Assembly: GCA_024680915.1 (NCBI GenBank)
Contig: JAILBN010000029.1
Coordinates: 1 to 63,182 of the forward strand
Reading direction: 5' to 3'
Source of the DNA: Treponemataceae bacterium
GTDB lineage: Bacteria > Spirochaetota > Spirochaetia > Treponematales > Treponemataceae
Length of the DNA stretch: 63,182 nt
Made by a program: the position numbers and the translations under genes. Positions 28,584 through 33,487 of the stretch are shown here, piece after piece. Numbering within the stretch: position 1 is the stretch's first letter; each line of letters begins with the position of its first letter. The notes beneath the pieces are model-generated. The model had not been told where the DNA came from. It saw only the letters and a program-made list of their open reading frames with translations, and made no database searches.

Positions 28584-30014
28584 TTACAAAAAAGCTTTCC
28601 CGGGGGCTGTGTCCCAGGTAAAGATGGAGGCAGTTTTTTTTGCGACAGCTACCGTTATACCATCTCCTGCGATTTTTCTAATAAGAAGGCAGCTGTCTCC
28701 GGCTTCCGCTTCAGCTGCAGTATTCCCGGCTTCTGGACCTTCAGAGCAGGCGGCTTTTACCGCAGCTCTCTCACACACATTTGATACCCCTGTAGTCTTT
28801 TCTACAAAAGCCGACTCTGAGAAAAATCCAGACAGGGCAGCAAGCTTCTCAGCAGAATAGATCAGGAAAGGAACATGATAATACTGGGCCAGTTCCATAA
28901 GTCCTATTTCATTCTTTTTCAGGTCGATGGAGGATATGGAGCGGATCTTTCCTCGGATGTCCTTAGGTAGAGTCTTATCAAAGAAAGCAAAAAGCTCGTC
29001 AAAGGTCTTGCCTTTTTTACAGCCGATTCCCACACAGTAAGGACGGTGACGAAGGACCAAGCAGGAAGGACGAAGACCGGGAAAAAGCGACTCTTTGCCC
29101 GGATTCCCGCCGGAAGCAGGACAAAAAAGCGACTGTCTGCCCGGATTCCCGCCGGATGCAGGACAAAAAAGCGACTGTCTGCCCGGATTCCCGCCGGATG
29201 CAGGACTTCCGTCTGCCCTTGCCCCCTGACCAAGAGCCTGATTTTCGGGCAGAATTATTATATCGGCATTTTCCGGAGGGCTACCAGTCTCCGTCAAAAA
29301 CAACTCACCCGGAAGCTTGTCACGGGGAAAGGAAATGGAAGGATCTATCCAGACGACAGCCCTTTCTCCTGACAGGAGTTTCCCGGTCACACCCTTGACA
29401 GAATCACGATTCACTATCGAAAAACCGTTGCGCCGGGCGAACACATCCACGGAGAATATCTCCTCCACGTCAGAAGCCGTAGTTATCACAGGAAGAGCCC
29501 CCAGGCGGGCTGCAATAAAATGAGCAAGCTCATTGGCACCACCCATGTGACCGGAAAGAAGCGGAATGACGAAATTAAGTTTCTCATCCGCCACGAGGAC
29601 CGGACTGTCTGAAAACTTGTCCTTTACATAATCTGCTGACATACGCACGGCTATGCCGGCAGCTCCTATGAAAAGCAGAGGCAGATGCTTTCTGAAAGCC
29701 TGGCCTGCAAAGTCTCTGGCGGAAAGCTTTTTGCCAGCCGGCAGCCCTGAAGAGGAATCCGGTCCACACGAAGCAGGCTCATACCCGACAGCCGGCAGCC
29801 CTGAGGTAACATTCTCCCACTCACAAGCGACAGTCTCCCGCTTACAAGCGGCAGTCTCCTCCCCGCAATCACAAGGCTCCAGCCCACTATCCACCGGATT
29901 CCGCCTCTCTGAGAGAGACCGCCAGGAAATCCAATTGATTTCGGGAATCCTTGAGCATAACGACTCTTCACACCGTCTCCCCTGCTCCGTAAAAGAACAA
30001 ACGTAAACAACCAT
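28584..30014 (-). CDS. cbiG: Cobalt-precorrin-5A hydrolase with tandem-repeat linker
   Basis: 476 residues from the ATG at 30014 (AGGAG eight bases upstream; a longer frame to 30110 is ignored because it would overlap cbiF). CbiG opens the delta-lactone and releases acetaldehyde. The central domain has IAVRMSADYVKDKFSDSPV and VIPLLSGHMGGANELAH, the C-terminal domain VGIGCKKGKTFDELFAF and NEIGLMELA. Two low-complexity inserts stand out. One follows the first ~30 residues and is rich in repeated acidic and Cys residues. The other is a 14-residue tandem repeat (PASGGNPGRQSLFC, about 2.5 copies) between the central and C-terminal domains. Family members are normally ~330-350 residues, so the inserts explain the excess. 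Confidence 0.92.
   Translation of the reverse strand: MVVYVCSFTEQGRRCEESLCSRIPEINWISWRSLSERRNPVDSGLEPCDCGEETAACKRETVACEWENVTSGLPAVGYEPASCGPDSSSGLPAGKKLSARDFAGQAFRKHLPLLFIGAAGIAVRMSADYVKDKFSDSPVLVADEKLNFVIPLLSGHMGGANELAHFIAARLGALPVITTASDVEEIFSVDVFARRNGFSIVNRDSVKGVTGKLLSGERAVVWIDPSISFPRDKLPGELFLTETGSPPENADIIILPENQALGQGARADGSPASGGNPGRQSLFCPASGGNPGRQSLFCPASGGNPGKESLFPGLRPSCLVLRHRPYCVGIGCKKGKTFDELFAFFDKTLPKDIRGKIRSISSIDLKKNEIGLMELAQYYHVPFLIYSAEKLAALSGFFSESAFVEKTTGVSNVCERAAVKAACSEGPEAGNTAAEAEAGDSCLLIRKIAGDGITVAVAKKTASIFTWDTAPGKAFL
29079..29206. repeat. 42-bp tandem repeat inside cbiG
   Basis: Two full units (29101-29142 and 29143-29184, one base different) are flanked by a partial unit on each side (29079-29100 and 29185-29206). 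The unit begins GGATTCCCGCCGGA on the + strand. Forty-two bases keep the frame and encode PASGGNPGRQSLFC. Confidence 0.95.
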
Positions 30015-30025
30015 AAAGCCGGCTC

Positions 30026-30787
30026 CTATTCCTTTTTGACAGGCCGGAAGGATGTCTCGAAGTCGGAAGAATAGAGGCGGGACTTTGAATAAGCAGAAGG
30101 GGAGATGCATTTACCGACCAGAATCACAGCAGTCTTTCTGATATTATGAGCTGCGGCTGTTTCCGGCAGAGTAGCCACAGTACAGACATATTTCTCCTCA
30201 TCCTTCCAGGAAGCCTTGTAAACTATGGCGGCTGGAGTATCAGGAGAACAGCCTCCCTTGATAAGTCTCTCAGAAAGCTCTTCTATCATGCTGCTGCTTA
30301 AGTAAACAGCCATGGATGCCTGATGGGCGGCAAAGCTTTCTATGCTCTCTGCAGCAGGAACACTGGTCCTGCCCGCCATCCTTGTTATTATAAGGGATTG
30401 GGACACATCAGGCAGGGTAAACTCAAGATTAAGGGAGGCTGCGGCACCGAAACAGGCCGAGACACCAGGGCAGCTTTCATAAGGGATATTCCTGGCATCA
30501 AGCTCATCCATCTGTTCCCGGACTGCTCCATAAATACTTGGATCCCCCGTATGAAGGCGGACAGTCGTCTTCTTCTCAGCCTCTGCCCTCACAATCACAG
30601 AGATGACCTCGTCCAGGGTCATTCCGGAACTATCATAAACCTCACAAGCCTTGTCTGCGTACGAAAGGAGCTCAGGATTCACCAGGGATCCTGCATAAAC
30701 AATCACATCGGCAGCTTCAATAAGACGCATTCCACGGACAGTAATCAAATCAGCGGCGCCACATCCGGCACCAAGAAAATAAACCAT
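30026..30787 (-). CDS. cbiF: Cobalt-precorrin-4 C11-methyltransferase
   Basis: 253 residues of the tetrapyrrole methylase family. Seen: VYFLGAGCGAADLITVRGMRL at the start, VIVYAGSLVNPELLSYA, TVRLHTGDPSIYGAVREQMD and PGVSACFGAAASL, the diagnostic CbiF/CobM set. First of six consecutive corrin genes (cbiF-G-H-JE-T-A), starting only 16 bases after the HD-GYP gene. No promoter or cobalamin riboswitch is seen in that gap, so transcription probably comes from upstream. Other corrin steps (cbiK/X, L, C, D, P) are not in the window. The TAG stop falls within the ribosome site of cbiG. Confidence 0.94.
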   Translation of the reverse strand: MVYFLGAGCGAADLITVRGMRLIEAADVIVYAGSLVNPELLSYADKACEVYDSSGMTLDEVISVIVRAEAEKKTTVRLHTGDPSIYGAVREQMDELDARNIPYESCPGVSACFGAAASLNLEFTLPDVSQSLIITRMAGRTSVPAAESIESFAAHQASMAVYLSSSMIEELSERLIKGGCSPDTPAAIVYKASWKDEEKYVCTVATLPETAAAHNIRKTAVILVGKCISPSAYSKSRLYSSDFETSFRPVKKE

Positions 30788-30803: not shown

Positions 30804-33107
30804 TCAGTTGTTGTAGATTTTTTCCAGAGTAGGTCTGATTATATAAAGGAGTTCCACAAGATCAGGATCGAAATGCTGTCCCTTGGATTCTTCGAATATC
30901 TGGAAGGCTCTGTCTATAGAAAAAGCCTCCTTGTAAGAACGGGCCGAACACAAGGCATCGAAAACATCTGCGACAGCCATAATACGAGCGCTCAAGGGAA
31001 TGGAATAACCTGCAAGCCCTTGGGGGTAGCCTGTTCCGTTCCACTTCTCGTGATGAAACAAAGCCATTTCTCTTGCAAACTTCAGGTACTTGTCATTTTC
31101 AATTCTGGACATTGTTTTGCTGATGATTTTCTCACCCTCTACAGGATGGGTCTTAATAATCGCGAATTCCTCATCAGTAAGCTTTCCAGGTTTTGATAGG
31201 ATCGCATCAGGAACCTTTATCTTTCCTATATCATGAAGAGGAGCGGCCATTGCGATCATATCGAAATCTATAGGCTCCAGCTCATTTTCATACATATCAA
31301 GTTCCTTTATAGTCTGCATAAGGAGCACAACAATCTGACTAGTCCTCTTCACATGCTGACCGGTAAGACCATCACGGGATTCAATCATATCGGCGAAACT
31401 GAACACAATACGATTCTGCATATCAGTTACATACAGATTCTTTTGGTTCAGCTCCACGACCATAGCTGACTCCATGATTATTCTTGCGACAGGCGGTACA
31501 AGACGGATCTCAGAGCTGGAGAAAATAGAGTACATTGATTTCTGACCGACGAAAATATACCCCACCAATTCGTGGGACATATAGAAAGGCACGGAAAAGC
31601 CCCTCTTTTTATGGAGCATGATTATATTCTCAGAGTCCTTCTGATTCTCCCTGTCGGCAATCATAAGGGGAAGCATTTCAGAGGAAACGCTCATATCAGC
31701 GGTTTTCTGATAAATAATATTGTTAAGCTGGCTTTTTTTATCACTGAACATACAGAATGCTACAAAATTCATGTTGATCATAGAGAAAAGCCAGTCTGAC
31801 GCTATTACAAGAATATCCCTGGTATTATTGCACCTGAACACCTCCTGCTCAAGGTTATCAAGCTTCTTCTGCAGATATTCAAGTTTAGGAAACAAAAAAG
31901 ATATAAGGGGTCTTTCCAGTACAATATATACCAGAAGGATCAGAATAGCGAAAAAAATCAAGCTTACGGAAGATCCATCAAGGTATGCTGAAAGGAACAT
32001 GGTAATCAAAATTGAGCATCCGCCATTCATAAGCCGGCCGGATATGCTGTCCAGATTCAAGGAAGAAGCTTGCAGCAGGGAACAGAATACCGAAAAAGGA
32101 ATAAAAATAAGGGGAAGAATAGTATAAAAGGACTCATATTCAGAACTGACCCAGAAAGAGTCATTTATGACACGAAGACAAAGAACTATGGCGGGAGCAA
32201 TGGTCGCAAAGCTGAAACCAATTATAAAGAAACGTAGGATAACCGAGGTTTGTTGTCTGATTTTCCTTACAAGCACGATCAGCATAACGAATTGGAATAA
32301 AAAGCTCAAACTAAGGAGAAGCATAGGCCAATTCACGAATAAAGTGTTGAAAACCGACACTGCTCCTAGGGATATCAGGATATGCTTCAGAAGCGAAAGA
32401 CAGAGAGGAAGAAGACTGAATTTCCTGAAGAAAGAATACCTTTTTTCTTTTCCTGAAATCATAAAGAAATAAGCGACAGAACGGAAAATAGAAAAAGAAA
32501 CGAGAGCTGCACTCAAATCGAAGGAGATAAGGTTGAAAATTGTAAAGGCAAGAGTATTCGCAGCGTCAGTATAAGAGTTGATGATACAGGGACCAGCCGC
32601 AATCATAAACCAGACGAAATCAGAAGTTCCTTCGATATTGATCGCAAAAAAACTGGAGACAATACCGAAAATAACAAAAATCATACCGGTTATGAATAAA
32701 ATCCAATGATCAAAACCAACGCATCCCAGCTTGGTGAAAAAAGGGATATCCTCCTTTATCGTGAAAGAACAGGTAAAGCCGTTCTCACATTCCACATCAT
32801 AATTTTTATTGAACTCATATATATTGGAGTAATTCCGGTAGGATTCTTCCAAAGAGGCGGAAGCATCTATTTCTGTAAACTCAGATATCTTTATATCATT
32901 AATACGGGTAAGGACATCTCCGGTCCTTATACCTGCTTTATAGGCAGGACCGGATGGGAAACAATCAGTTACATGGAAGGCAGAATCCTCAGTATGGATG
33001 CGGAAGCCTGCCAAGGTATATGGTTGATGAACAAGCCACAGGAACTGTGCTATCACAAAAAGAAAAGAAAAAAAACAGAAAAACAGATAAGTCCTGAGCC
33101 TGTGCAT
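30804..33107 (-). CDS. Membrane HD-GYP c-di-GMP phosphodiesterase with PDZ and GAF-like domains
   Basis: 767 residues: a first membrane helix (~5-28), a periplasmic PDZ-like segment (~35-95, DCFPSGPAYKAGIRTGDVLTR), about seven more membrane helices (~125-390), a GAF-like region (~410-540), and an HD-GYP domain (~560-760). The domain has HDIGKIKVP and HHEKWNGTGYP, where W-N replaces the usual DG spacing residues but metal ligands remain. It should hydrolyse c-di-GMP. The ATG at 33107 lies just eight bases behind a TATAAT box, so the mRNA may be leaderless. The cobalamin operon follows after 16 bases, probably on the same transcript. Confidence 0.88.
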   Translation of the reverse strand: MHRLRTYLFFCFFSFLFVIAQFLWLVHQPYTLAGFRIHTEDSAFHVTDCFPSGPAYKAGIRTGDVLTRINDIKISEFTEIDASASLEESYRNYSNIYEFNKNYDVECENGFTCSFTIKEDIPFFTKLGCVGFDHWILFITGMIFVIFGIVSSFFAINIEGTSDFVWFMIAAGPCIINSYTDAANTLAFTIFNLISFDLSAALVSFSIFRSVAYFFMISGKEKRYSFFRKFSLLPLCLSLLKHILISLGAVSVFNTLFVNWPMLLLSLSFLFQFVMLIVLVRKIRQQTSVILRFFIIGFSFATIAPAIVLCLRVINDSFWVSSEYESFYTILPLIFIPFSVFCSLLQASSLNLDSISGRLMNGGCSILITMFLSAYLDGSSVSLIFFAILILLVYIVLERPLISFLFPKLEYLQKKLDNLEQEVFRCNNTRDILVIASDWLFSMINMNFVAFCMFSDKKSQLNNIIYQKTADMSVSSEMLPLMIADRENQKDSENIIMLHKKRGFSVPFYMSHELVGYIFVGQKSMYSIFSSSEIRLVPPVARIIMESAMVVELNQKNLYVTDMQNRIVFSFADMIESRDGLTGQHVKRTSQIVVLLMQTIKELDMYENELEPIDFDMIAMAAPLHDIGKIKVPDAILSKPGKLTDEEFAIIKTHPVEGEKIISKTMSRIENDKYLKFAREMALFHHEKWNGTGYPQGLAGYSIPLSARIMAVADVFDALCSARSYKEAFSIDRAFQIFEESKGQHFDPDLVELLYIIRPTLEKIYNN

Positions 33108-33142: not shown

Positions 33143-33176
33143 TAAAAAAATATTTACGGTTTTTAGTAAAATTAAA

Positions 33177-33346
33177 TGGAGATAATCGATAACCGGACTC
33201 GAACCGGGGCTCCGGGCAAAAAATCCTTTTTTGTGCCCTCCTCCTCCGCCTTCGCTCGCTGCCGGCGGCCTCCATGCCGCCTTTTCCTGCATATGCTCCG
33301 CACTGCTCACATATGCAGGCGCTCGCTTCGTTAGCCGGTTCGATTC
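33177..33346. repeat. G+C-rich structured element bounded by copies of the tRNA-Ala T-arm
   Basis: 33177-33207 repeats the 3' end of tRNA-Ala (33390-33413) in the same orientation, interrupted by seven extra bases (33186-33192). 33332-33346 is an inverted copy of the T-arm with 14 of 15 bases matching. Between them lies DNA much richer in G+C than its surroundings, with perfect arms CCTGCATATG (33286-33295) / CATATGCAGG (33310-33319) and GGCGGC (33264-33269) / GCCGCC (33276-33281). It cannot be a second tRNA because the 5' half is missing. It is a possible small mobile or palindromic repeat. Confidence 0.7.
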
Positions 33347-33352
33347 ATATGC

Positions 33353-33388
33353 AAAAAAAAGACCGCCACAGAAAGTGTCGGTCTTTTT
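33353..33388 (-). terminator. Intrinsic terminator of tRNA-Ala
   Basis: On the - strand AAAAAGACCG pairs with CGGTCTTTTT around a short inner stem (CAC..GTG), and a run of T follows. It begins immediately at the 3' end of the tRNA. Confidence 0.8.
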
Positions 33389-33389
33389 A

Positions 33390-33462
33390 TGGAGATAACC
33401 GGACTCGAACCGGCTACCTACAGATTGCGAACCTGTCGCTCTACCAGGTGAGCTATATCCCC
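33390..33462 (-). tRNA. tRNA-Ala (anticodon CGC)
   Basis: A 73-base cloverleaf: acceptor stem GGGGATA/TATCTCC containing the G3-U70 pair that identifies alanine tRNAs, D-stem GCTC/GAGC, anticodon stem ACAGG/TCTGT with loop TTCGCAA, and T-arm GCCGG-TTCGAGT-CCGGT. The discriminator base is A, and CCA is not encoded. It has a promoter overlapping the end of the EAL gene and a terminator directly behind it. Confidence 0.96.
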
Positions 33463-33487
33463 AAGCACGCCTTAAGCGTCATGGATT

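Follow-up and report, generated by a model that had tools for sequence, protein, structure and literature searches.

A family of short, gene-less hairpin elements behind tRNA and tmRNA genes of Treponematales, with ends that match the adjoining tRNA

We lean towards reading a structured insert behind a tRNA-Ala gene of a Treponemataceae bacterium as one copy of a family of non-autonomous, hairpin-folding insertion elements that target T-arm-like hairpins. The insert (approximately 170 nt, with a core of approximately 105 nt) lies in the window, by which we mean the whole stretch of 63,182 nt that was analyzed (contig JAILBN010000029.1 of assembly GCA_024680915.1). Members of the family have a characteristic place, orientation, and anatomy, a conserved fold, and ends that match their own target, and they occur behind many different tRNAs.

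Along the tRNA strand, the gene at the window locus is followed by a trailer, an inverted T-arm, the core, which is rich in G+C, and a second tRNA 3′ end in direct orientation (Table 1); the first open frame beyond these on that strand begins at 33107. The direct copy is made of 20 exact nt (33188–33207) and TCCA (33177–33180), separated by the 7-nt sequence GATTATC, and the inverted T-arm matches the tRNA in 14 of 15 nt, 12 of which are contiguous and exact. Both repeats had been placed correctly by an earlier sequence-only reading, which had also described the insert as structured and without recognizable coding sequence; we saw no coding sequence either, and the region 33175–33463 folds better than all 200 shuffled sequences (z −5.1). 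When stretches of 288 nt were drawn at random from the window (up to 2000 times), matches to the tRNA tail reached at most 11 nt, against the 20 nt observed, and a chance repeat was therefore ruled out. For the inverted copy, with its 12 exact nt, chance draws reached 11 nt and three draws gave 20 nt; these three, with starts at 32712–33000, are taken to touch the element or the tRNA, the exclusion zone being too narrow. Elsewhere in the window, an open frame at 28584–30110 carries a repeated PASGGNPGRQSLF segment.

Table 1. Parts of the window locus behind tRNA-Ala(CGC).
Feature	Position	Strand	Evidence
tRNA-Ala (anticodon CGC), intact host gene	33389–33463	-	ARAGORN; Rfam tRNA 63.2 bits
Trailer, terminator-like hairpin and T-run between tRNA and element	33356–33388	-	inverted repeat I2; sequence reading
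Inverted T-arm copy, left end of the element ("anti")	33332–33346	-	repeat match; local tRNA likewise matched elsewhere
Conserved core: S1, P2, P3, and S1 return strand	33245–33330	-	covariance model R1 58.7 bits; covariation on short-form cores
Tandem-GA hairpin P2, long form	33287–33318	-	within core
Hairpin P3, ATGGAG loop	33264–33281	-	within core
Hairpin P4, AT-rich, diverged in window copy	33214–33238	-	comparison with G000, G001, and G005
Direct tRNA 3′ end copy, right end of the element ("sense")	33177–33207	-	7-nt insertion at 33181–33187

BLAST of this region against related genomes gave matches in 16 of 98. The unit was found behind other tRNA genes in the window's own genome and in many others, at several tRNA kinds and with flanks that fit the local tRNA, which agrees with the earlier idea of a tiny non-autonomous element or dispersed repeat; the sequence at the window locus is not the same in all relatives. 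A covariance model, R1, was built from 13 short-form cores taken from BLAST-found loci; both partners vary in 10 of its 14 pairs, and 95.1% of the cells are paired. R1 matched 90 of the 156 genomes of the order (41 of 64 genera, and 70 of the 121 better assemblies) and gave no match in the remaining 66, with up to 15 copies per genome in the order (15 in G072 and 10 in G137) and five matches at E 1e-3 in the source genome of the window. No match was obtained in the genomes of genus g15 or in one 1.1-Mb genome of the order, which, from their sizes and the TD RNAs, we read as T. denticola-like and T. pallidum-like, respectively. Because only 9 of the 149 genomes of a phylum-wide sample match, 8 of them inside the order, R1 is not promiscuous.

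The family extends beyond the spirochaetes. An exact 22-nt core pattern occurs in at least 120 stretches of GTDB genomes, and the 80 stretches listed come mostly from spirochaetes; Omnitrophota account for ten of them and groundwater Deltaproteobacteria for three. R1 confirmed 14 of the 15 genomes probed via pattern loci and gave 1–12 matches in each Omnitrophota genome and 40 in G222, a groundwater deltaproteobacterial genome of 2.3 Mb. One pattern match in Caldatribacterium (L225) was taken as chance, its genome having no R1 match. Viral contigs gave no match to the exact pattern, and phages and plasmids gave only four short matches covering 13–19% of the query, two of them to annotated phage tRNA-Ser. 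In the loci scanned, no gathering-level match of Rfam 15, ribozyme families included, fell on the core, and a literature search among open-licence papers, a weak negative, found no description of the element; this family of short, gene-less hairpin elements is apparently undescribed.

The common plan of the elements was read from an alignment (A4) of 45 elements selected from 69 non-redundant short-form elements. It runs from the inverted tRNA end through a CGGAG-like link, S1, P2, an AAAA-like link, P3, and the return strand of S1 to P4, which is of near-constant size, and then to the direct tRNA end. In A4, 95.2% of the cells are paired, against 70.0% in shuffles, and both partners vary in 24 of the 33 pairs, a signal that is lost when the partners are slid. 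P3 loops read, for example, ATGGAT, and P4 loops AGGAC or ACGAT; at the Ala and Gly copies of the window's genus, P2 is extended, which gives a long form. The core is thus a conserved structured sequence in its own right, and the suggestion that the insert is T-arm-derived holds for its ends, which are copies of the local tRNA, but not for the approximately 105 nt between them. G-T pairs are rare in the cores (25 of 1399 standard pairs), whereas tRNA acceptor stems from the same loci, in a crude alignment, have 271 in 1890; the corresponding T-stem figures were set aside as unreliable, 250 of 1355 cells being unpaired. The low G-T share suits selection on, or a templated origin of, paired DNA, as far as so crude a comparison goes. 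Two loci (L005:1252-1385 and L028:208-288) have extra sequence within the P3 loop, as if another insertion had taken place there, and in G072 one element appears by eye to be nested inside the P4 hairpin of another (L020/L027; L027:1501-1673).

We then examined where the elements lie. In a copy set that is incomplete, since one match list entered it only in part, and that is biased towards tRNA by nine rows from loci retrieved with tRNA-Ala queries, 144 of 159 distinct copies (167 minus the duplicates of one genome present under two names) have a tRNA or tmRNA gene at most 450 nt upstream, on the same strand in all 144. The genes concerned belong to 30 types, spanning 15 amino acids and tmRNA, and some of the 15 other copies are situated at the end of a contig or follow a broken tRNA. 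In a smaller, earlier set, 103 of 103 copies were on the strand of their tRNA or tmRNA. Among the GTDB matches listed, 80 of 98 exact-pattern occurrences lie at most 400 nt behind a tRNA or tmRNA gene, 18 have no such gene, and none is on the opposite strand. Several of the loci sets, the G222 stretches included, were chosen from match lists and are therefore non-random. Elements behind tmRNA genes were observed at L042, L054, L183, L273, L274, and L279–L281, and in Spirochaetaceae MAGs the copies at L195:1156 and L209:3015 adjoin C-rich hairpins, with no tRNA found alongside.

This fidelity to tRNA and tmRNA 3′ ends, together with the conserved unpaired bases, could also reflect a function for the host. 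The main rival to an insertion element is a functional structured RNA of tRNA transcription units, which might, for instance, pair with the tRNA T-arm during maturation or bind a CsrA-like protein via A-N-G-G-A loops. Strict sense orientation downstream of the gene, helices with compensatory changes, GGA-type loops, a tandem G-A step in P2 that reads GA/GA in 45 of 45 elements, and a complementarity to the local tRNA that is maintained across different tRNAs all argue for such an RNA. So does the tRNA-Ala(CGC) site, where the core is 85–90% identical among G000, G001, and G005 and the trailer and P4 are much less alike; at this site the terminators of G001 and G005 differ from that of the window, and the downstream protein of the three genomes is 63–69% identical to the window's. 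We nevertheless consider a host RNA unlikely, as the tRNA and the element are often parted by a terminator, 66 of the 156 genomes do without a match, the copies read in G222 lie mostly away from tRNAs, part of the P4 loops have CGA in place of GGA, G-U pairs are rare for an RNA, and the cores do not sort by tRNA identity. The window copy itself may be regarded as a relic in part, as had been proposed, its tRNA copy being broken by 7 nt and its G005 counterpart lacking the last hairpin and the tRNA copy.

The ends of the elements follow the tRNA closely. The direct copy starts at C56 in 54 of 81 rows of a first set and 53 of 94 rows of a second, and the inverted copy stops at position 52 or 54 in 74 of 111 rows and at its other side most commonly extends as far as position 65, where the T-stem ends (24 of 111). 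The terminal inverted repeats agree with their own target and not with sister copies, and at other tRNA kinds the flanking copies in the loci read match the local tRNA and not tRNA-Ala(CGC). In an Ala(GGC) lineage, both junction points are shifted together by approximately 6 nt (by eye, with the numbering corrected). The length of the direct repeat varies, taking in the tRNA end alone, the full trailer, or an entire tandem unit, which is unlike a clean target duplication and speaks against the insertion reading; tandem units that enclose the trailer are present at L033, L037, L058, L061, L063, L070, and L072.

Such ends might also be produced by an RNA-borne element, intron-like or retro, whose 5′ guide pairs with the tRNA; a nick in the T-loop would be the place where this RNA is converted into DNA, which would double the 3′ end of the gene. 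It would fit that the start point of the direct copy is spanned by the inverted end, that in 27 of 94 rows the direct copy ends at position 73–74, where a processed tRNA would end, and that the complementarity passes position 72 in only 6 of 111 rows. A reverse transcriptase does not accompany the element, however: RVT_1 was found in 21 of the 90 carriers and 13 of the 66 element-free genomes (p 0.70), and neither the 15-copy G072 nor the 10-copy G137 has an RVT_1 match at E 1e-8. With the core giving no Rfam match to ribozyme families and being poor in G-U pairs, we judge an RNA-borne origin to be quite improbable. Y1_Tnp (PF01797) was likewise present in 38 of 90 carriers and 27 of 66 element-free genomes (Fisher p 1.0), and both families were rejected as partner genes because neither tracks the element over the 156 genomes. 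Clustering of the ORFs near 80 pattern loci gave only neighbors of the tRNA loci and frames over the element, with no linked gene, and no autonomous copy was found. Because the core outlasts the trailer and P4 at the tRNA-Ala(CGC) site, no gene accompanies the element, and RVT_1 and Y1_Tnp do not track it, a host RNA keeps some credibility. In G093, a RAYT-like gene that lies shortly before one element precedes tRNA-Gly, which may be a coincidence.

Similar cores behind different tRNAs, tandem units, a near-identical copy away from tRNAs, and a genome with 40 copies are all observed in this family. For elements whose genome has another copy at a different tRNA, we determined the nearest core, which for 103 elements lay in 22 cases in another genome at the same tRNA, in 38 at another tRNA of the same genome, and in 43 at another tRNA of another genome. 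Cores thus do not track tRNA identity. In G001, the Ala(CGC) and Ala(GGC) cores are 93% identical, a closer likeness than either core shows to its G000 and G005 counterparts, and the Leu and Met copies of G069 have a score of 0.89 and different local ends. In Breznakiella, a second copy lies 1.5 kb off, away from the tRNA, and the pair is nearly identical over 144 columns, the element being identical and the left flank differing by one base and one gap. Only one tRNA was present in 20 stretches at matches in G222, and three of the 12 elements readable by pattern have direct repeats across the element, of 26, 40, and 48 nt. Some G222 matches (L308–L327) lie near the ends of protein frames, and those at L326 and L327 follow the end of an open frame on the same strand; this genome seems the most promising source of an active form and of its enzyme. 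By eye, element-free tRNA-Ala(GGC) loci, which are not paired with filled alleles of close strains, have no inverted T-arm, and two of them (L099 and L106) resemble scars.

Tandem units with the trailer inside and the homogeneous copies within Ser-tRNA clusters are also what would be left if an old sequence behind tRNAs had only been duplicated locally in tandem and homogenized by gene conversion, with no transposition. Set against this are the 30 gene types, the non-tRNA copies in G222 and Breznakiella, the presence in distant phyla, and the target-matched ends, and we regard local duplication as very unlikely.

The element was also compared with known systems. Integrative elements whose attB is a tRNA 3′ end duplicate that end, and the gene stays intact. 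Our element resembles them in that the tRNA 3′ end is directly repeated on its far side but differs in lacking an integrase or cargo of its own, in its extra inverted copy of the tRNA end, and in its size of approximately 170 nt; an ordinary phage or ICE remnant was rejected because there is no integrase and an inverted copy is present. MITEs are small and non-autonomous and have inverted ends that are common to the copies; the element is equally small and non-autonomous and has inverted ends, but each copy has its own, which belong to its target. Integron attC sites are structured sites of approximately 60–140 bp with RYYYAAC and GTTRRRY end boxes that are recombined as folded single strands. 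The element is likewise a structured site, but it has no gene cassettes, and inspection of A4 by eye revealed neither box.

REPs are repeats of 20–40 bp with a GTAG or CGTC tag and are associated with RAYT (Y1) transposases (PMC3733652). What the element has in common with the REP/RAYT system are short, palindromic, non-coding repeats, whose movement is presumed to depend on an enzyme that acts in trans and recognizes folded single-stranded DNA (PMC3733652). It differs from REPs in its core of approximately 105 nt without an invariant GTAG- or CGTC-type tag in A4, its location mainly at tRNA and tmRNA 3′ ends, and its target-derived ends, and from the REP/RAYT system in that its presence is independent of Y1_Tnp genes. 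The TwoAYGGAY RNA (RF01731) has hairpins with AYGGAY-type loops and a tandem-GA stem (PMC2864571, PMC4333381), both of which the element shares, and its proposed role as a CsrA binder, as put forward in PMC4333381, adds to the case for a host RNA; unlike what we see for the element, the sections of the two accounts that treat this RNA mention no tRNA genes (PMC2864571, PMC4333381). With the TwoAYGGAY model, none of 38 genomes from the order gave a match above the gathering threshold, the genome with 15 copies had no match even at E ≤ 1, and in the loci scanned nothing fell on the element; membership was rejected because the family model does not match. Its subthreshold matches led to the TD-1 and TD-2 RNAs of T. 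denticola-like genomes, which lie without tRNAs, and at L137 and L142–L146, in T. denticola-like genomes without the element, several TD-2 RNAs have similar GGA loops. Altogether, the element has traits in common with REP- and MITE-type repeats and with tRNA-integrating elements but lacks, among the features tested, some that define each of them.

For the insertion element that we favor, we infer a folded-single-strand route, an inverted end copied back from the target, and a protein acting in trans. The mover would be an enzyme encoded elsewhere that acts on the non-coding element, and its usual target would be a small DNA hairpin, namely the T-arm of a tRNA or tmRNA gene. The element would insert via its folded single strand, and the inverted end would arise by copying of the target back on itself during insertion. 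The gene would be kept whole, its 3′ end (mostly from C56), often together with the trailer, being doubled across the element. We put forward tentatively, at less than even confidence, the more specific proposal that the hairpin core attacks the T-arm of tRNA and tmRNA genes as well as other gene-end hairpins and rewrites both of its own ends from each target, one directly and one inverted, and would thereby stay matched to its target without damage to the gene. To our knowledge, no described transposon, REP, or integrase system inserts with target-copied ends.

If the ends are truly copied from each target, the family would represent a harmless way of inserting DNA at essential genes, and the enzyme responsible would be worth finding. 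If the element is instead a host RNA, an RNA conserved at the 3′ ends of tRNA and tmRNA genes would so far have been overlooked. Either way, the family is matched in 90 of the 156 sampled genomes of the order, yet Rfam 15 has no entry for it, and the annotation of tRNAs may be misled by the partial copies that it contains.
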